The translations under genes and the position numbers were made by a program. Shown here in pieces: positions 9,631-24,279 of a stretch of 61,203 bases of DNA. The stretch spans positions 1-61,203 of the forward strand of contig JADFPE010000004.1 of the NCBI GenBank assembly GCA_022562495.1. The letters are read 5' to 3'. Origin of the DNA: Acidobacteriota bacterium (lineage in GTDB: Bacteria > Acidobacteriota > Vicinamibacteria > Vicinamibacterales > UBA8438). A model generated the notes under the pieces. That model did not search any database and was not told the origin of the DNA. It saw only the letters and a list, made by a program, of their open reading frames with translations. The number at the start of each line of letters is the position of its first letter. Position 1 is the stretch's first letter.

Positions 9631-10188
9631 ATGAAACGCACCGTTCTCATCGTCCTCGCCTTCGGCGCGCTGGCGTTCTCGTCGAGCGTGTACGCACAAA
9701 CAAACGCGGAGCTCATCGAGTGGGCGCTGGCCGCAGCGCCGCGGCGGGCCCAGGAAGGCGCGACCGTCGTCAAGTGGGCCGCCGACCACACCTACACGAC
9801 GATCAAGGAAGGCACCAACGAGATCGTCTGCTACAACCGTGCGGATGAACGCGACCGGCAGCCGTTCGCGGTGCAGTGCACCAACAAAATGAACCTCGAC
9901 AGGGTCGCGCAGAACCGGCGGTTTCATGCGGAGAGTACCGACGCTGAGGGAGAGCGCGCGCTGGTGGCCGCCGCCGACGCGAACAGCACCCGCGTGAAGG
10001 CCGAGTTCGGCTCTGTGTGGCGCTCAATGAATGGTGCCGACCAGGCAAGTGCTCGAGTACACGCGACCATCGCCATGCCAGGGGCGACCACGGCGTCCAC
10101 TGGCTTCCCTGAGAATCGCGACCATGGTGGCGCATATCTCATGGCGGCGGGCACGAGCGAGGCCCACCTCATGACACCGGGGCAGTAG
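9631..10188 (+). CDS. Secreted protein of unknown function
   Basis: 185 residues, with a signal peptide (MKRTVLIVLAFGALAFSSSV, cleavage after VYAQ). The mature part begins with a helix (ELIEWALAAAPRRAQEGATV) followed by a strand-rich part containing KEGTNEIVCYNR. A GGAGG lies about nine bases before the ATG. I do not recognise a family. The ATVV.W......T.. lead followed by a C-bearing strand resembles small exported proteins often annotated as hypothetical in Acidobacteria. Confidence 0.65.
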   Translation: MKRTVLIVLAFGALAFSSSVYAQTNAELIEWALAAAPRRAQEGATVVKWAADHTYTTIKEGTNEIVCYNRADERDRQPFAVQCTNKMNLDRVAQNRRFHAESTDAEGERALVAAADANSTRVKAEFGSVWRSMNGADQASARVHATIAMPGATTASTGFPENRDHGGAYLMAAGTSEAHLMTPGQ

Positions 10189-10225
10189 AGCGCTCAACAG
10201 AGGCGGACGTACGAAGACGCCCCGG

Positions 10226-10249
10226 GGGGCAAGGCCGACGCCTTGCCCC
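10226..10249. terminator. GC-rich hairpin between convergent genes
   Basis: GGGGCAAGGC (10226-10235), loop CGAC, and GCCTTGCCCC (10240-10249) form a perfect 10-bp stem between the convergent 9631 and HugZ-like genes. There is no clear T-run, so intrinsic termination is only probable. It could also be a repeat-type palindrome. Confidence 0.45.
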
Positions 10250-10287
10250 GCAGGCGTGAAGGCCTGCGCCACATCGGCAACCCAGGC

Positions 10288-11097
10288 TCAGCCGAGCTTG
10301 GTGCGGGCGTCCTTCAACATCGCGACGAGGGCGGCCCGGACCTCCTCTGGCGTGCCGACCTGGTCGGCGAACGCCAGACGGACCGGTCGGGGTCCCTCGG
10401 CAGTCACGGCCGACATCTCGAAGCCGTACCGGTCGACGCCGGTCATGCTGGCGGCGGTGATGTCGGTCGCCTTCGAGAACGCCTTGCAGTAGAGCACCAT
10501 GCCGTCGGCGTGGTCGGCGTTCATGTGGGCGATGATGCCGGCAGCCGATGCGGCAAGCGGGTCCGGTTCGGCGGTGTGCCACTCGGCCGCCTCTACCCAG
10601 GACATCCGCCCGTACCCGCCGATGTACCGGATCGACTCCACCTCCAGCCGCCAGAACGCGAAGTCACGGAAATCGGCGTAGTAGGCGGCGTTCGGGTGCG
10701 TGGCCAGGAACGCCACGCGCGCGCTGCCCCCGTCGCCGTCAACCTGTCGGCAGGGTCCGAGCAGCGTGACACGGCCGTTCGCGAGTGGGTCCTCAGAGCC
10801 GCTTTCGGCCACCAGCAGCGACGCCCGTGGGTCGCGCTGCAGGTTCCGGGTGTGCTCGGCCAGCGTACTGACGAGAAAGACCGGGTTGCCGTCGTCGAAG
10901 GCGACCGTCACGAACGAGCCGTAGGGATAGCCTTCCGGCTCAGCCGCCACCGTGCACAGGGTGCCGGTCGTCATCTGCCCCACGAGGGTTCGCGCCCGCT
11001 CGGCATGCGTGGGCGTCGGCACGTTCACGTCGTACAGCGGTTCCGGCGCGTCGCCGGACGGCCGGGCATGGGCGTCGTTGGTCTTGTCTGTCGTCAT
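10288..11097 (-). CDS. HugZ-like FMN-binding split-barrel protein with DUF2470 domain
   Basis: 269 residues. The N-terminal part is a pyridoxamine-phosphate-oxidase-type split barrel (GYPYGSFVTVAFDDGNPVFL, LVSTLAEHTRNLQRDPRASL, ARVAFLATHP). The C-terminal part is a DUF2470 domain, IIAHMNADHADGMVLYCKA, whose histidines bind haem iron in HugZ-type proteins. A role in haem breakdown or a related flavin/haem reaction is plausible but unproven. ATG 11097 is chosen; the longer frame would overlap the upstream holin-like gene. The two genes are nearly contiguous (stop at 11100, start at 11097) and probably co-transcribed. Confidence 0.75.
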   Translation of the reverse strand: MTTDKTNDAHARPSGDAPEPLYDVNVPTPTHAERARTLVGQMTTGTLCTVAAEPEGYPYGSFVTVAFDDGNPVFLVSTLAEHTRNLQRDPRASLLVAESGSEDPLANGRVTLLGPCRQVDGDGGSARVAFLATHPNAAYYADFRDFAFWRLEVESIRYIGGYGRMSWVEAAEWHTAEPDPLAASAAGIIAHMNADHADGMVLYCKAFSKATDITAASMTGVDRYGFEMSAVTAEGPRPVRLAFADQVGTPEEVRAALVAMLKDARTKLG

Positions 11098-16294: not shown

Positions 16295-16380
16295 TCTAGC
16301 AGGCTGTGGAACAACGCCAGCCAGGGCGCGCGGCAATGCGGGCCCCGCGGGTGCGGCGTGGGGTTCGGGGCGCAGCCCCG
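16295..16380. repeat. Partial CTAG-ended repeat in a divergent promoter region
   Basis: Sequence starting CTAGCAGGCTGTGGAACAAC lies between the divergent aldehyde dehydrogenase and M48 genes. It begins like other CTAG-bounded elements of the window but lacks a matching right end. It is followed by a GC-rich stretch. I take it as a truncated copy of a second, related family. Confidence 0.4.
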
Positions 16381-16392
16381 TCTGGGTACTCG

Positions 16393-17646
16393 ATGAACAT
16401 CTACGCGTGGATCGTGCTGGTGGCGTTGCTCGGAGAGCTCGCGCTCTCGGTCGTGACGAGCCTGTTGAACATCCAGGCGATGAGCCCGACCGTGCCGGAC
16501 GAGTTCCGTCCGGCCTACGACGACGAGACCTACGCACGCTCGCAGGCGTATACCCGGACGCGCACGCGGTTCGGTCTGCTGCACGACGCCGTCAGCCTGG
16601 CCGCGCTGCTCCTGTTCTGGCAACTGGGTGGGTTCGGCTGGCTCGACCGGCTGTGCCGTGGGGCCGGGCTGGGACCGGTATCGACCGGACTGCTGTTCAT
16701 CGGGGCGCTCGTGGTCGGCTCGACCGCGCTCGGTCTGCCGTTCCGGATCTACTCCACCTTCGTCATCGAGGAGCGGTTCGGGTTCAACCGCACGACCCGG
16801 CGCACGTTCGTCCTCGATCGCCTCAAGGGGCTCGCCCTGGGGGCGGTACTCGGCGGCGCGTTGCTGGCCGCGGTGCTGTTCTTCTTCGACTGGGCGGGAC
16901 CGCTGGCCTGGCTCTGGTGCTGGGGCGCCGTCACCCTCTTCATGTTGACCGCCCAGTTCGTGGCACCCACCTGGATCATGCCGCTCTTCAACACCTTCAG
17001 CCCGCTCGACAGCGGCGAGCTGAAGGACGCGCTGCTCGACTACGCGCGGTCGACGCAGTTCCCGCTCGACGGCATCACCGTGATCGACGGGTCACGACGG
17101 TCGGCGAAAGCCAATGCGTTCTTCACCGGCTTCGGCAGCCACAAGCGGATTGCGCTGTTTGACACACTGGTCGAGAAGCAGACGACCCCCGAGCTGGTCG
17201 CCATCGTGGCGCACGAGGTGGGGCACTACAAGCGCCGGCACATCCTGAAGGGCCTGGCGCTCAGTCTCGCCCACACCGGTGTGTTGTTCTGGCTGCTGTC
17301 GCTGTTTCTCGATCGACAGGGACTGTTCGACGCCTTTGCCGTAGGGGAGCCGTCGGTGCATGCCGGGCTGGTGTTCTTCGGGCTGCTGTTCACACCTATC
17401 GAGCTGGTCCTGTCGGTTCTGGTCAATTCCTTCTCGCGCAAGTACGAGTTCGAGGCGGACGCGTTCGCCGCCGACACAACCGGTAGCGCGGAACCGCTCA
17501 TCACAGCGCTGAAGAAGCTGTCGACCGACAGCCTGTCGAACCTCACGCCCCACCCGCTACAGGTCTTCTTGCACCATTCGCACCCGCCGGTGTTGCACCG
17601 GATCACAGCCTTGAGGGCGTTGACAGGGGGGGAGGAACCGGCCTGA
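16393..17646 (+). CDS. M48 family zinc metalloprotease, CAAX prenyl protease 1 (Ste24) type
   Basis: 417 residues with several membrane helices and the zinc motif HEVGHYKRRH near residue 274, with the downstream ligand Glu in YEFEADAFAADT. The N-terminal membrane domain and the segments GFNRTTRRTFVLDRLKG and FFTGFGSHKRIALFDTLVEK are diagnostic of Ste24/CAAX-type M48 enzymes rather than HtpX. In bacteria these probably act in membrane protein quality control. ATG 16393 starts directly with the first membrane helix. Confidence 0.9.
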   Translation: MNIYAWIVLVALLGELALSVVTSLLNIQAMSPTVPDEFRPAYDDETYARSQAYTRTRTRFGLLHDAVSLAALLLFWQLGGFGWLDRLCRGAGLGPVSTGLLFIGALVVGSTALGLPFRIYSTFVIEERFGFNRTTRRTFVLDRLKGLALGAVLGGALLAAVLFFFDWAGPLAWLWCWGAVTLFMLTAQFVAPTWIMPLFNTFSPLDSGELKDALLDYARSTQFPLDGITVIDGSRRSAKANAFFTGFGSHKRIALFDTLVEKQTTPELVAIVAHEVGHYKRRHILKGLALSLAHTGVLFWLLSLFLDRQGLFDAFAVGEPSVHAGLVFFGLLFTPIELVLSVLVNSFSRKYEFEADAFAADTTGSAEPLITALKKLSTDSLSNLTPHPLQVFLHHSHPPVLHRITALRALTGGEEPA

Positions 17647-17845
17647 AGGCGGTAAACAATTACGGATGAACCCAGCCATCAATCGCACCGTCTCGGAGTT
17701 CGTGAGACGTCAACGGGTCCGGGAGTCCGGTCGGTTGCTGCGTGAGGACGCGTTCGCTACCCGCTAACCAACGCGCAGCTCGAGAAGCTGGACCACGGAC
17801 GCCCATGGTCCTGGTCTCGCTGCACCATCCCAACATTGGCTCGGC

Positions 17846-19294
17846 TCACCGCTCCGCCAGCTTTTTCTCCAGCTCCGCGACCTCCCGATCCCGCCGATGG
17901 TAGCCTATCACGTCAATCATCGTTTTGCCCCGAACCAGCACGTTGAGGGCTTTGTCGCGCTCGCCTTCCTCCAACCACAGCCGGGTAGACTCCAGGTACG
18001 CATCGGCTTGATGAAGCTTCATTGGTCCCGCCCCAGCAATCTCTAGTACTTTCTCGACGTCGGTCCACGCGTCAGGTAACTTCCCCTGTACCCGACGTAA
18101 CGCCGCATGGGCCAACAGACCAAGGAGAAGATGATCTTCCTGTTTGGCCTTGAACAGGTCGGCTACAGCAGTGTCAATGTGGTTCATGGCCTCAGACAGA
18201 TCACCCGTGTCCTTTTCTTGCAGAGCCTCAAGCAGGATGGCGCGGCCGAGCGAGAGGTGGTCGAGCGCGATGTCCCGGATCCGACCTTCCTTGATATTCC
18301 ATTCCAGCGTCTGAATGGCCCGCTGTTTCACCTCTTGGTATTTCCCTTGGTCGAGCAAAAAATCACAGTATAGAAAGCCTGCCAGCACCGCGAATAGAAG
18401 CGGACGCGCAGGATCCCATTCCTCTTGAATTCGCTCAGCCTTGCGAAAGACTGCTGCTGCCTCTTCGGTTCGTCCCACTTTGTGTAATGCCTCGCCAAGG
18501 AACGCTCGATTATACGAGTGTTGAGGACCCCAGGGTCCAGAGCGATCATCGCTACGTTCGGCAAGTTCGACGCCCTTCTGAGCGTACTTGAGGGCCTCGG
18601 CAAGTTCCCCGAGCTGGAGGTAGATGGTGCTGCAGTTCGCGGCAGAGTTGGCCGCGGCTATCCAATCTTCTGCATCTTGACGAACTTCCACCGCCCTTGT
18701 CATCGGCCGGATTCCCTCCGTGATCCGGCCCAGCGCACGGAGGTCCCATCCCGCCTCATTCAGGACATAGCCCTGGCTCTTCGGAACAAGTCCCGCCACG
18801 GGTTGGTCCCAAGGTTGGTCGGAGAGCGTGAGGTCAAAAAAACAGGACACAGCCGCCAGGTCGTCGCCAATAGCCCCGATCGTGAACTGACTGTAGGCTT
18901 CGGGTCCTCTATGCATCCGGCGACGGTACACGTCATCGAGGACCTCCTGGTGTCGGCCGGCATGACATCCGTGCGCGACGACTTGGGACAGCGCCGTCAT
19001 CCCTCGTAGATCCTCAGGCAGATCGGTCGTTTCTTCTCTCAGGTACTCGTACAGTCTGCGGTGTCCTTCGCGCCACGCCTCGGGAAACTTTTCCTGAACC
19101 TGATCGCTGAAATACTCGCGCACCAACGGATGGACATCGCACCTATCCGGATCGCGCACCTGGGCCTTATCGATCAGACGCGCCTTTCGTAAGCGCCCCA
19201 GCACGCGCCGCCATTGGTCGGTCGACTCCAGCTCCACCAGCGTCTTGGTCAAGTGGGCAATGGATGGAGGCTTCCGGAGGACGTCCAATAATTT
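17846..19294 (-). pseudogene. C-terminal (TPR) half of a SEFIR-STAND-TPR protein, separated by an IS
   Basis: 479 residues continuing exactly where the upstream half stops (DVLRKPPSIAHLTKTLVELE). First comes the end of the STAND winged-helix region (LRKARLIDKAQ...CDVHPLVREYF). After that follow tetratricopeptide-like helical repeats (AANSAANCSTIYLQLGELAE, ALKYAQKGVELAERSDD, HKVGRTEEAAAVFRKAE, LFAVLAGFLYCDFLLDQGKY), ending in a basic/acidic helix VAELEKKLAER. In an intact protein this would be the sensor arm that recognises a trigger and controls oligomerisation. An internal ATG could express a fragment, but without SEFIR and ATPase domains. Codons are less GC-biased than in neighbouring genes, suggesting acquisition by transfer. 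Confidence 0.85.
19286..19294. repeat. Left target-site duplication of the IS
   Basis: CAATAATTT is found directly outside the left inverted repeat, and again, identical, at 21286-21294 outside the right one. Confidence 0.9.
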
Positions 19295-19351
19295 GAGTGT
19301 GGCTCTTCTTCGTCGACGGCCAGTGGGGCTCTGCGAAGGAAGACGCGAGAG

Positions 19352-20947
19352 TTACTTGACCCGTCGAAGACGTGGCGTGGAGGGGGGTGGGAGCAGATCT
19401 TTGACCGGAGTGACGGCCCCATCGGCGTACCGCTCGGCGTGGTTCCGCTGGTACTCGCGCGCTTCGTGGTAGTCCCAATACGCATCGAAGTCGCCGCTGG
19501 CTCGTAGCGCCCGGAGCTTCAGGACCGCTTCGGCGCCGACCAGGCGCCAGCGCGCGCCGGTCAACTCCATGCGGTCTCGAACCAAGTACCGGCACGCCCC
19601 TTCGATGACTCCGGTGGCGATGGGATAGCCCGCCGCGAGGTAGCGATCGTAGTGCAGGTACGGGGCGTATTTCACTAGGTAGTCGGCGCAGGTATCGACA
19701 CGCTTGCGTTCGCCGCTCGAGAAGCCGGCGATGGTCGCCGCGCGCCGCATCGCTCCGGCCACCTGACTGGCCTTACCCTCGAGAATGCTCCGCACGCGCG
19801 TCCAGGCCCAGCACTCCAGCTCGGGGCTCCCCTCTCGGTGGAACACGTGCGCGGCCTTCCAGACGTACTCGGCCACGTGGATGATGTCGATGACCACCGT
19901 GACCTCCACGTCGTGCATCGCGGTGATCTCTTCCACGAGGGCGAGCTGCGTCTCGGCGCCATCGACGAGCGCGATCCAGCGCGTGGCGTGCTCGGGGTCC
20001 TGGCGCTCCGCTTCCAGCGTCGCCTCCGCGATCACCTCCCACGGCTCCTTGTCGATGCTGGCCCAGACCCGTTTCGCCACGGGTCGAGCTCGCACGCCCC
20101 GGGGCGTGGCGCCCGGCTGTGGCGGCATCAAGCTCCGCAGGAACTCCTCGGGGCTCCGCACGAACGGCGCGACCGCGTACACGGCGGCGACGGTGGCCAT
20201 TCGCTTCGAGTGCTTCTTCTCTCCCTTCTTGAGGCGCTTGAACAGTCTTGAGAGCTTCTCTTTCTTCTGTCGGCGCCGCTCGGCCGCTTTGCGCGTCGCC
20301 GCGCGCAGATCGTCGCGATGCATCACGACGCCCTTGCCATCGAAGGTGAGCACGATCACCCCACCCGTGGGTGGCGGCTGTCCATCTTCCTCACGACGTG
20401 CCTCGTAGAACGCGTCGAAGTCCTGCGCCGCTCGAACCACCAGCGCTTCCGCCTGACGCTTGGGCACTTCCGCCCCGGTCGTGCGAGCCAGATCGAACAG
20501 TGTTTCGTCGAAGGAGCGCGAGGCCGCCGCCGCCGCGACCCGGCGGCGCACCTCGAGCGAGTAGCGCTCTGGCGGCAGGTTGAGCGCGGCATCAAGCGGA
20601 TGCAGGCTGTCGTGACCGGGGCTCGCGTATCCCACGCGCTCGACCTGCACCGTGCCGAAGATCGTCTCCAGGTGGCGGGCGTGCACGCGCCGCTCTGAGC
20701 GCGCGACGCCGTCGGCCCCCTCGACCGGTCCGGCGGCCTCACCCGGGCTGCGTTGCTCAAGGTGCCCTTGCAGGAGCTTGCGCATCAGCTCCTGGCCGCG
20801 TCGGTGCAACTCGCGCTCAAGATCGCTCTCGCTCATGTGCTGGGCGTCGCGCGACGAGAGGTACGCTTTGGCCTGCGCGAAGGCGGCCTCCGCCGCCGCA
20901 TACGGTGCGTCGACGGGCGGACAGTCCATGCAGGCGGCACGCATCAC
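19352..20947 (-). CDS. ISKra4-family DDE transposase
   Basis: 531 residues. The domain order matches ISKra4 transposases: a helical N-terminal part with RRGQELMRKLLQGHLEQR, a conserved strand region (RHLETIFGTVQVERVGYASP), then the catalytic core. The core has candidate acidic residues Asp203 (VLTFDGKGV), Asp329 (WIALVDGAE) and Glu449 (IATGVIEGACRYLV). The final part has the MELTGARWRLVGAEAVLKLR motif. Start is GTG 20947 or ATG 20944. The stop lies 57 bases inside the left end of the element. Nothing suggests damage, so it is probably active. Confidence 0.9.
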   Translation of the reverse strand: MMRAACMDCPPVDAPYAAAEAAFAQAKAYLSSRDAQHMSESDLERELHRRGQELMRKLLQGHLEQRSPGEAAGPVEGADGVARSERRVHARHLETIFGTVQVERVGYASPGHDSLHPLDAALNLPPERYSLEVRRRVAAAAASRSFDETLFDLARTTGAEVPKRQAEALVVRAAQDFDAFYEARREEDGQPPPTGGVIVLTFDGKGVVMHRDDLRAATRKAAERRRQKKEKLSRLFKRLKKGEKKHSKRMATVAAVYAVAPFVRSPEEFLRSLMPPQPGATPRGVRARPVAKRVWASIDKEPWEVIAEATLEAERQDPEHATRWIALVDGAETQLALVEEITAMHDVEVTVVIDIIHVAEYVWKAAHVFHREGSPELECWAWTRVRSILEGKASQVAGAMRRAATIAGFSSGERKRVDTCADYLVKYAPYLHYDRYLAAGYPIATGVIEGACRYLVRDRMELTGARWRLVGAEAVLKLRALRASGDFDAYWDYHEAREYQRNHAERYADGAVTPVKDLLPPPSTPRLRRVK

Positions 20948-21260
20948 TCAGCGCTCCCGCAACCGCCGCTGGGCATTCCGGTTCACCGGATAAATCAGGA
21001 TCATCGTGGCGCCTCAAGACCCTCAGTCGCCGCCACGCTCATCGCAGAGGCGTCTCCCGTCCCACGACACCGTACCAGAACGCCGCGCCAATGTCCAGGC
21101 CCGCCGCCCGCGGGAGGGGACGGACCGAGGCCCGCCGAGGCCGGGGGCATGAAGCCGTGATGGCTGCCTCAAAAAGAGGTGCCGGGGGCGCGTGTACCAG
21201 GAACATTGACCCGACGAGGAGTCGTCCGCGCGCTCAATTGCCTATAAAATAAGCCAAAAG
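20948..21260. other. Untranslated 5' part of the IS
   Basis: No credible gene is seen in this stretch between the transposase start and the right inverted repeat. It contains an AT-rich patch (TATAAAATAAGCC, about 21243-21255) near the right end that could serve as a promoter for leftward transposase transcription. Confidence 0.4.
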
Positions 21261-21285
21261 CCATCTACGAAGAAGAGCCGCACTC

Positions 21286-21294
21286 CAATAATTT
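21286..21294. repeat. Right target-site duplication of the IS
   Basis: CAATAATTT is identical to 19286-19294. Read on the minus strand it encodes Lys-Leu-Leu of the interrupted gene. Confidence 0.9.
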
Positions 21295-22770
21295 GCCCTC
21301 GGCAGGCCGGTCGAACAGACCGAGCAACCGCAAGACGGCTAACTCCGGCCCCTCCCCGAGCCATGTTTCGTACGAAGCCAGCATCTGCCAGGCGTGGCCG
21401 CCATGTTCCTTGTCCTCTTCCCGCAGCGGTATCTCGCCCCGGCGGCTCACGTCGCCACCGCAAACGTCACGCAGATACGTGCCCAGCAGATTCAGCGCCA
21501 GGCCATGTCCCCCGAACTCACGCGACGCATTCTCCAGCTCATCCTGCGAGCCCTGCACGCCCAGCGCGGCGAGTAACGCCGCGCCGGCGGTCGGCGACAG
21601 CTGTTCCAGCTCGATCACCAGCGCCGTGGTCCCGCTGAAAGGTTGCAGCTCCTTGATGGACAGCCGCGTGGTCAGAATGCACAGCCCCGGATTGTCGGCG
21701 GCCAAGGCGCGAACCAGGGTCGCCAACGCCGGGTCCTTCAGATCGCCCCCGCCGCTATCGCCGTGGCCTGGTGGATGTTGAAGCGGTTCGAGCCCGTCGA
21801 GGATCAGCAGTGACCGCTCCTCTTGCACCAGCGTGACCAGCCGCTTGGCTCTGTCCTTGGCGGTACCCGCCTTTGGATCGTCGTCGCCGAACTTTGTGAG
21901 CGCTTCGTGGATGAACAGGTCGGCAGAGGTGGCGGTTTCGCGGGTGCCCTGGTTCTGGAACGACCAGCCGAAGACCCGCTCGGTTCCTCGGTAGTGCTCT
22001 TTCCCCATCGCCCCGAGCCAGCGCCTTACAAGCGCCGACTTGCCCACTCCACCCCACGCGATCAGGCTCACCACATTCGTACCGGCGTCGGCCCACGCGT
22101 CGTCCAGACGTTCAAGTTCTTGATCTCGGCCGAACAGAAACTCGCCGGTGTCAGGCAGTTGGGAGTACCAGACGCAGCGGGTTGGGGAGGACCCGCTGCG
22201 TGCCGGTGTAGCGATGTCGTTCGACATCGATGATCCCACAGCGCCAAAGCTCAACGGCGCTCCCTGACGACGGGTCTTCGGTGACCTCATCCTGACGGGT
22301 CCCGGCTCGATGCCGCCGGCACCGTCCAGGAAATCGCGCAGGGCGGAGTAACCCTCTTTGACCCTAAACAGGTAGTGCGTGTCTCCCCGGAGCGGTTCGG
22401 GGATGAAGTCTGCGTGGGCCGCGTCGCAGAGAAGAGGCACAAACTTGGAGGTGCGACTGCGACTGTCGTAAATCAGCTGGGTGATCAGCGCGCCTTCCCA
22501 ATTGACGCCTTTTCCCAGGTTCTGCTCCTCATGCCCGCGGAACCTGCGGTAGTAGGTTTCGGTGCAGACAACCAGCACAAACGCGGCTCTGTCGAGCTGA
22601 TCGAGCATCCAGCGCGGCCAGCCTTCAGTGGGGGTTCCGTTGACATATTGGTCAATCTGCGCATCGAACCCATCCTGACGGAGCCGCTCTGAGAGACTCA
22701 ACACGAGATCACGGTGTTCAGCCGAATCATGGCTGTAGCTGATGAAAACAGGTGTGGGTTCCCGTGACAT
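21286..22770 (-). pseudogene. N-terminal (SEFIR + STAND ATPase) half of a SEFIR-STAND-TPR protein
   Basis: 495 residues from ATG 22770 to the IS. Residues 7-135 form a SEFIR domain, the TIR-like fold: VFISYSHDSAEHRDLVLSLS, GWPRWMLDQLDRAAFVLVVC and WEGALITQLIYD. After a linker comes a STAND NTPase with Walker A GGVGKSA (240-246), Walker B LLILDGLE (321-328), and the sensor arginine region LCILTTRLSIKELQ. The following winged-helix segment ends at EGKLL, where the insertion lies. In-frame read-through into the IS adds ECGSSS and a stop, so a truncated SEFIR-ATPase could still be made. Bacterial SEFIR and STAND proteins are known immune receptors; an anti-phage role is inferred. ATG 22779 is an alternative start. 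Confidence 0.88.
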
Positions 22771-22785
22771 CGGTTTCATACCCCG

Positions 22786-22958
22786 CGGTGAAAGCCCAGC
22801 TCCATGCGACCGGCGTTGCATCCCGGCTGCCTGCGTTGCTCCTTGGTCACATACTGCCGGTATCTTCCCTCGTCACGCCTTGCCGGGGCCCGGCGCGGCG
22901 TCGATCTCGACGACCCTCGGTGCCACGCTGGGCTTTCACCACGGGCTATTGCCACTAG
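22786..22958. repeat. CTAG-type inverted-repeat element, copy 1
   Basis: The left arm GCGGTGAAAGCCCAG and right arm GGGCTTTCACCACGGGCTA are inverted repeats. The interior (CTGCCTGCGTTG, then TACTGCCGGTAT, then CCTCGTCACGCCTTGCC) matches the copy at 49.2 kb. The right end finishes in CTAG (22955-22958), which contains the TAG stop of the PQQ-like gene. The left terminus is degraded and abuts the SEFIR gene start. Confidence 0.8.
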
Positions 22959-24196
22959 GGCCGTGGATGGCCGATGCGATACAGGTGATCGTGGGTGCGG
23001 ATGAACAGCGAGCCGTTGGCGACCGCCATCGAGGCGAGGATGACGCCGTCGAGCCGGTTGATCGCGAGCTCGCGATACTCGGTGCCGGGCGCGACGACGG
23101 TAGTCACCCCTTCCTCGCTCTGGAAGTAGATACGTCCGTCGGCGAACACCGGTGACGCGGAGAAGTTGCCACCCAGACGTTCCCGCCAGTGCGTCTCGCC
23201 GGTCCGGGCGTCGAGACAGGTCGCCACGCCCAGATCGCTGACGATGTAGAGCTCGTCCCCGACCAGCAGCGGTGACGACGTCAACGGCACGCCCCGCCGC
23301 AGCGTCCAGGCGGTGTGGGTGGCGGTCACGTCGCCGTGGCCGTCGGCAAGCACGGCGAGCAGTGACGGCACCTGGAACCCGGTCGCGACATAGACCATCC
23401 CGTGACCAAAGACCGGCGCCGGCACATTGGAGAAGCCGTCGCCGTAGGAGACCTCCCAGATCTCCTCCCCCGACTCCGGGTCGTACGCGGTGGCCCGAAA
23501 CGCGCCGATGCTGAAGAGCTGGTCACGGTCTCCGACCCGGATGACCAGGGGTGTCGAGTAGGCCTGCGAGATCGGCTGGCGACGCGGGGTGCGCCACCGC
23601 TCCTCGCCGGTCGCGGCATCGAGCGCCACGACAAAGGCGGTGTCGTAGCCGTCGACACTGAGGATCAGCCGGTCACGATACAGCACCGGCGACCCGCCGT
23701 TGCCGTGCTGGGTCACATACGGGAAACGGGTGATCCAGACGACCTCGCCGGCGGTGGTCAACGCAGCCGTGCCGTCGGCGCCGAAGTGAACATACACGCG
23801 GTCGCTCTCGACATCGATGACCGGCGTCGGCGACGCGAGACTGTTCTTGGGGTTCGGAGAGGCAGTCTGGTCGATCCTGATCACCTCGGTGTCGAGCAGC
23901 TCCCGGCCGGTCTCGACATCATACGCGAGGAGCCGCAACGAGCCGGCGCCGTCGTCGGTGGCAGTCGTCAGCCAGATACGCCCATCCGCCACCACCGGTG
24001 ACGACCAGCCGCGACCCGGGACCTGGGTTTTCCAGACGACGTTGGTCGATTCGCTCCACTCGAGCGGCAGCCCGCGTTCGGACGAGTGCCCCTGCCCGGT
24101 CGGGCCACGAAACGCCGGCCAGTCCTGAGCGTGCACCGCCAGACCGGTCAGCGTCACCACCGCAAGCACGACCGCCAGTCGTTGCATTGATGTCAT
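22955..24196 (-). CDS. Secreted PQQ-like beta-propeller protein
   Basis: 413 residues with a signal peptide (MTSMQRLAVVLAVVTLTGLA, cleavage after VHAQ). It has repeated propeller blades typical of PQQ-binding-like proteins (DWPAFRGPTGQGHS at the start; blade motifs GRIWLTTATDDG, DRLILSVDGYDT, GDELYIVSDLG and DGRIYFQSEEG, each followed by a D..TG...W turn). Such proteins with the opening DWP.FRGP are common in Acidobacteria and Planctomycetes. They lack recognised PQQ ligands, so enzyme activity is uncertain. ATG 24196 is chosen over 24187 because of an AAAGG upstream. The stop codon is part of the CTAG terminus of the adjacent repeat. Confidence 0.8.
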   Translation of the reverse strand: MTSMQRLAVVLAVVTLTGLAVHAQDWPAFRGPTGQGHSSERGLPLEWSESTNVVWKTQVPGRGWSSPVVADGRIWLTTATDDGAGSLRLLAYDVETGRELLDTEVIRIDQTASPNPKNSLASPTPVIDVESDRVYVHFGADGTAALTTAGEVVWITRFPYVTQHGNGGSPVLYRDRLILSVDGYDTAFVVALDAATGEERWRTPRRQPISQAYSTPLVIRVGDRDQLFSIGAFRATAYDPESGEEIWEVSYGDGFSNVPAPVFGHGMVYVATGFQVPSLLAVLADGHGDVTATHTAWTLRRGVPLTSSPLLVGDELYIVSDLGVATCLDARTGETHWRERLGGNFSASPVFADGRIYFQSEEGVTTVVAPGTEYRELAINRLDGVILASMAVANGSLFIRTHDHLYRIGHPRP

Positions 24197-24279
24197 TCTA
24201 ATCGAACCTTTCCTGGCGTCCTGCGTTCTTCTACTACAGAGGGAAGACGGTGGCAGACCACCGGGTCCACGCACGGTAG

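Follow-up and report, generated by a model that had tools for sequence, protein, structure and literature searches.

Bacterial genomes contain genes for large receptor-like proteins that join an effector, a nucleotide-binding switch and a sensor in one polypeptide. At the locus studied here, the coding sequence of such a protein is found as two open frames separated by an insertion sequence. The locus lies within a 61,203-nucleotide stretch of an Acidobacteriota draft assembly (GCA_022562495.1, contig JADFPE010000004.1, hereafter the window), and it raises the question of what the undivided gene encoded and whether anything functional is left of it. We consider the locus likely to be the pseudogene of a single-gene immune receptor similar to the NLRs of plants and animals (NLR-like), composed of a SEFIR effector, a STAND NTPase with its winged helix, and a TPR sensor. 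One ISKra4 insertion within the winged-helix coding sequence produced a 9-bp duplication and ended the upstream frame after six codons of the element. Inactivation by such an element is ordinary, routine pseudogenisation, and the gene is one more NLR-like bacterial protein. As a natural knockout of an NLR-like receptor in a bacterium, the locus is clean: the footprint of the element marks the event as recent, and relatives of the lineage lack the gene.

The Insertion and the Reading Frame of the Split Gene

The 5′ half of the split gene (21286-22770, minus strand) encodes the SEFIR domain, the STAND NTPase and the start of the winged helix in 492 residues, followed by Lys-Leu-Leu from one copy of the duplication; an in-frame upstream ATG at 22821 would add 17 residues (518-residue frame). 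The half ends in DRPAEG-KLL, after which the frame continues into the element as ECGSSS and stops. The 3′ half (17846-19285, minus strand; 479 residues) resumes with DVLRK (DVLRKPPSI...) directly after the other 9-bp copy and encodes the remaining winged helix, the MHD-like segment HPLVREYF, the TPR repeats and the stop codon. Rejoining the two halves with one copy of the duplication gives a frame of 492 + 3 + 479 = 974 residues, whereas the truncated product would comprise 492 + 3 + 6 = 501 residues.

The insertion sequence itself spans 1991 bp (19295-21285, minus strand) and was recognized by its transposase, inverted repeats, target duplication and relatives. The transposase frame (19352-20947, minus strand) is intact and encodes 531 residues, which match the NCBIfam ISKra4 model NF033572 with an E-value of 3e-103 and 346 bits against a curated cut-off of 205. 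The terminal inverted repeats, at 21260-21285 on the transposase-start side and at 19295-19320 on the transposase-end side, are imperfect (GAGTGTGGCTCTTCTTCGT / GAGTGCGGCTCTTCTTCGT), with 18 of the 19 outermost bases identical. Copies of the target-site duplication CAATAATTT are located at 19286-19294 and 21286-21294. A previous reading from the sequence only (the sequence-only reading) had proposed an ISKra4-like element flanked by a 9-bp duplication, and both proposals are borne out, the former by the model match and the latter additionally by 9-bp duplications around three related copies of the element (see below).

The SEFIR (TIR-like) effector domain was located at 22372-22752 (minus strand) by Pfam and by comparison with homologues; PF08357 matches the 5′ half with an E-value of 1.5e-13 and 51.7 bits, above the gathering score of 23, and residues W91-E92 are invariant across SEFIR-STAND homologues. 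The STAND NTPase core (21592-22137, minus strand) matches NACHT and AAA_16 at about 1e-6. For NACHT, the window protein scores 28.4 bits and just exceeds the cut-off of 26.7, whereas most homologues stay below it. We found all the features expected of a STAND NTPase, namely the Walker A motif (GGVGKSAL, 22030-22053), the Walker B motif (LLILDGLE), the sensor arginine (TTR) and a winged helix with an MHD-like histidine motif, and these motifs are kept in the homologues. The last of them, HPLVREYF (19109-19132), is a segment typical of the winged helix end and lies 3′ of the insertion. TPR_12 matches the 3′ half with an E-value of 2.5e-10, and the repeats extend over approximately 17921-18745. 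The proposed domain order of SEFIR, STAND ATPase, winged helix and TPR-like repeats thus agrees with the Pfam matches and the homologues, with the refinement that the insertion point falls inside the winged-helix domain and not at a domain boundary.

Uninterrupted Homologues of the Split Gene

Each half served as a query of its own throughout, with one search per half in a phylum-wide sample of 396 genomes. All six places at which the top match of the C-terminal half was below 1e-40 reside in frames that also bear the STAND region of the N-terminal half (twice in G331 and once each in G296, G404, G301 and G083). In the single 1051-residue frame of L032, the N-terminal half aligns up to residue 574 and the C-terminal half from residue 579 (query residue 2); both halves also share one frame in L007, L008, L009, L011 and L012. 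A genome-collection scan, for which the query was a single N-terminal half protein, identified four more full-length SEFIR-STAND-TPR proteins, from Methylococcaceae (L103), Nevskia (L104), an uncultured proteobacterium (L105) and Nitrosomonas (L106). In these four proteins, the aligned halves are separated by exactly three residues (SCI, DCL, DCL and GCL, respectively) at the position of the KLL, which is the coding length of one 9-bp copy.

Altogether, ten loci carry both halves in one frame, and none of the homologues examined ends at the position of the element, two partial matches (L107 and L108) being uninformative. Neither of the observations that the sequence-only reading had named as refuting it was therefore made. 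Its arithmetic for a frame of 974 residues was right, and the uninterrupted ancestral frame is supported by the homologues. Chance is excluded as the origin of the arrangement because the homologues span both halves in register and three related copies of the element are flanked by perfect 9-bp duplications. Among plasmids, the C-terminal half found no matches, and the N-terminal half mostly SEFIR/TIR domains only.

Relatives bear different N-terminal effectors (SEFIR, TIR, DUF4062 and CHAT) on the same STAND-TPR core. The STAND region is 45–49% identical to that of proteins with TIR, DUF4062 or CHAT N-termini, and the SEFIR domain shares 62% identity with its counterpart in the homologue L007. 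Judging from these comparisons, the N-terminal domains are exchanged on a common switch-and-sensor core, and the layout of effector, STAND and repeat sensor with exchangeable effectors is that of NLR/Avs-type immune receptors. The locus points to a SEFIR-STAND-TPR group with exchangeable effectors, of which intact members are available in named lineages (Nevskia and Nitrosomonas).

Structural Models of the Protein and Its Homologue

We used structure models of modest confidence (pLDDT 58 and 69). In the model of the intact homologue L104, the insertion point corresponds to residues 490-493, in helix two of the winged-helix domain; the truncated product would accordingly be missing the larger part of this domain as well as the entire sensor. 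The sequence-only reading had suggested that a truncated 501-residue protein may still be made; the length is right by arithmetic, and such a product is possible on paper.

Foldseek placed 6mfv (E 1.8e-10), a STAND-TPR protein of solved structure, at the top of the matches of the intact homologue; CED-4 and plant NRC2 came next, and Avs3 was also among the matches (8dgc, E 6e-5). The TPR part matches domain III of MalT with a Z-score of 21.4 and 5.0 Å over 338 residues, where the VIA-align rows cover mostly the TPR part and barely test the other domains. In the low-confidence model of the N-terminal half, the NTPase still matches Apaf-1, CED-4 and plant NLRs. The STAND-TPR proteins 6mfv, the best overall fold match, and MalT have the NTPase, winged helix and TPR sensor in common with the window protein. 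MalT ends C-terminally in a DNA-binding domain, whereas the window protein has an N-terminal SEFIR effector.

Comparison With Known Defence Systems

PADLOC detected the bSEFIR profile PDLC03957 over residues 15-158 of the 518-residue frame (E 1.7e-40). The match covers only positions 32-169 of the 412 in the profile, and a full-length match failed; PADLOC thus recognizes the SEFIR domain and not the whole protein. The Avs profiles of PADLOC matched neither of the two halves (E 0.1) nor the intact homologues (E 0.01). The window protein has the SEFIR domain in common with the anti-phage bSEFIR protein but carries it fused to STAND and TPR modules. With Avs/AVAST and bNACHT proteins, it shares the tripartite layout of an N-terminal effector, a central STAND NTPase and a C-terminal sensor; this design and the sensing of phages have been described (PMC12169576, PMC10907252). 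It differs from them in that its effector is a SEFIR domain and in that it gives no full-length PADLOC match to an Avs or bNACHT profile.

For defence by SEFIR, the listed mode of action is abortive infection through NAD+ depletion (PMC12322248). In the intact protein, the TPR arm would bind a trigger, probably a phage or invader product, upon which the ADP-bound NTPase would open and oligomerize. The clustered SEFIR domains would then act as a toxic enzyme, probably depleting NAD+ and stopping the infected cell. The insertion probably took away the sensor together with the regulatory HPLVREYF segment and left the receptor without function.

An anti-phage role of the intact protein is probable from its architecture. 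We base the immune role on this architecture and on what is established for SEFIR/TIR and STAND proteins (PMC12322248, PMC12169576, PMC10907252), not on the gene neighbourhood. The earlier proposal of an anti-phage or abortive-infection receptor is accordingly reasonable as far as the architecture goes but gained no direct or neighbourhood support, as PADLOC recognizes only the SEFIR domain and the neighbours are housekeeping genes.

Genomic Context and Origin of the Gene

The split gene is located between two genes that are conserved neighbours in the bacterial family, a CAAX-protease/M48 peptidase gene (16306-17646, plus strand) and a PQQ/BamB-like β-propeller gene (22955-24250, minus strand). 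The interval between them (17646-22955 in the window; the same interval in L093-L098) varies across the family from 0.1 kb over 1 kb to more than 5 kb, with differing contents. The spacing is 119–121 bp in G012 and G009, about 1 kb in two other genomes, and 5.4–6.3 kb with unrelated genes in another two. By inspection of the sequences, the contents in relatives include methionine-biosynthesis-like genes, a monooxygenase-like gene and a small ORF. We considered the interval as a defence hotspot and rejected this idea, since the relatives hold either unrelated genes or nothing there. No defence gene was recognized among the ten neighbours in the window, and the homologues are likewise surrounded by housekeeping genes, e.g., purH-like, 5′-nucleotidase, moaA-like and AFG1-like genes.

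The GC3 of the split gene (0.75 and 0.65) is lower than in three native nearby genes (0.84–0.91), and 27 other genomes of the same family lack the gene. Given both its low GC3 and this absence, it was most likely acquired horizontally as a single gene, landing between the two conserved housekeeping genes. A same-species empty site was not found: the gene is missing from all relatives compared, and the same-genus genome G003 is broken at contig ends at this place. The sequence-only reading had called the receptor recently silenced, perhaps because it was costly; the recency is consistent with a duplication free of mismatches, a transposase that is still intact and frames that have stayed open. 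The population may not carry the insertion throughout, given the fragmented state of the draft assembly (339 contigs, 89.7% complete).

Alternative Explanations for the Locus

The intact protein might instead have been a STAND-TPR signalling or regulatory switch, linked to, e.g., stress or development, in which the SEFIR domain served protein-protein contact rather than as a toxic enzyme and which was not dedicated to phage defence. This explanation draws on the lack of a defence-island context for the gene and its homologues, on the transcription activator MalT being among the nearest solved STAND-TPR fold matches, and on the defence profile being matched by the SEFIR domain and not by the whole protein. 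We regard it as unlikely, because the sporadic distribution, the foreign composition and the swapping of TIR, SEFIR, DUF4062 and CHAT on one core are typical of conflict systems (compare PMC7159879, PMC10907252).

The two other explanations concern the split itself. The locus could still function as a two-part system, in which a 501-residue SEFIR-NTPase made from the native start cooperates with a separately made TPR half that starts from the TTG in the duplication at 19288 or arises by read-through of the transposase stop. Both halves have indeed stayed open, that of the 3′ half without interruption up to the transposase stop, which is in its frame, and all genes are on one strand. The cut, however, divides the winged helix, and a domain interrupted in this way should not fold; none of the homologues examined is split at the insertion point, and a promoter scan, a weak test, found no sigma-70-like promoter in the region. 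Both this system and either manner of starting its TPR half appear very improbable to us. Even more far-fetched is the idea that the element belongs elsewhere and was joined to the gene in error during assembly, as might be suspected in a draft of 339 contigs. The element is single-copy in the assembly, and its target duplication is perfect and of the length seen for related elements; a misassembly would not produce a 9-bp duplication that restores the register with the homologues. The pseudogene of an NLR-like receptor remains our preferred explanation.

A Second Broken Family Member in the Same Assembly

Another contig of the assembly (C3, about 10053-10919; L146:5054-5920) contains the relic of a TIR-STAND-TPR gene, which is the only other family member we found in the assembly; neither the assembly nor the bacterial family yielded an intact one. 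The relic has an in-frame TAG inside the TIR domain, and the start of its STAND region, up to FGRRQELTLLDAAWDD, runs without a gap into the TPR region, of which the final ~90 residues are left; the P-loop and about 680 residues are missing. Its GC3 of 0.85 is host-like, which suggests an older acquisition. As both members in the assembly were broken by unrelated events, the lineage might be actively discarding NLR-like receptors, although we find this doubtful. If true, a fitness cost through autoimmunity, and not chance, could lie behind the loss of both receptors. A toxin-antitoxin pair of the Phd-PIN type is located just upstream of the relic.

Relatives of the Element and Its Lost Passenger Gene

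A genome of the same family (G019) contains several copies of a related element with 82% identity over 1.7 kb. Three of these copies, each 2784 bp long, have ends matching those of the window element and perfect 9-bp duplications (AAAGAACTT, TTTCGATTT and TTCTGGATT). The second ORF of the 2784-bp element encodes a DruA/DUF4338 protein (PF14236, 6e-47; L125:1995-3083, minus strand). Of this ORF, which is complete in the longer element, no more than the final ~18 codons are left in the window element (20948-21004, minus strand), which is therefore an internal-deletion derivative.

With the ISKra4-group insertion sequences (p-MULT 4, PMC3942029), the window element has in common the transposase family, the inverted repeats and the 9-bp duplications seen in related copies. 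Additional genes of unknown function have been reported for some members of the group, and several members insert upstream of promoters (PMC3942029), whereas the window element interrupts a coding sequence and no longer has its passenger gene.

The transposase and the TPR half share one reading frame, with the TAA stop codon of the transposase (19352-19354) as the sole stop between them; read-through of this codon would yield a transposase-TPR fusion. The G019 element also indicates that DruA-domain genes are able to travel on simple transposons, and annotation that labels every DruA as a defence gene could be misled.
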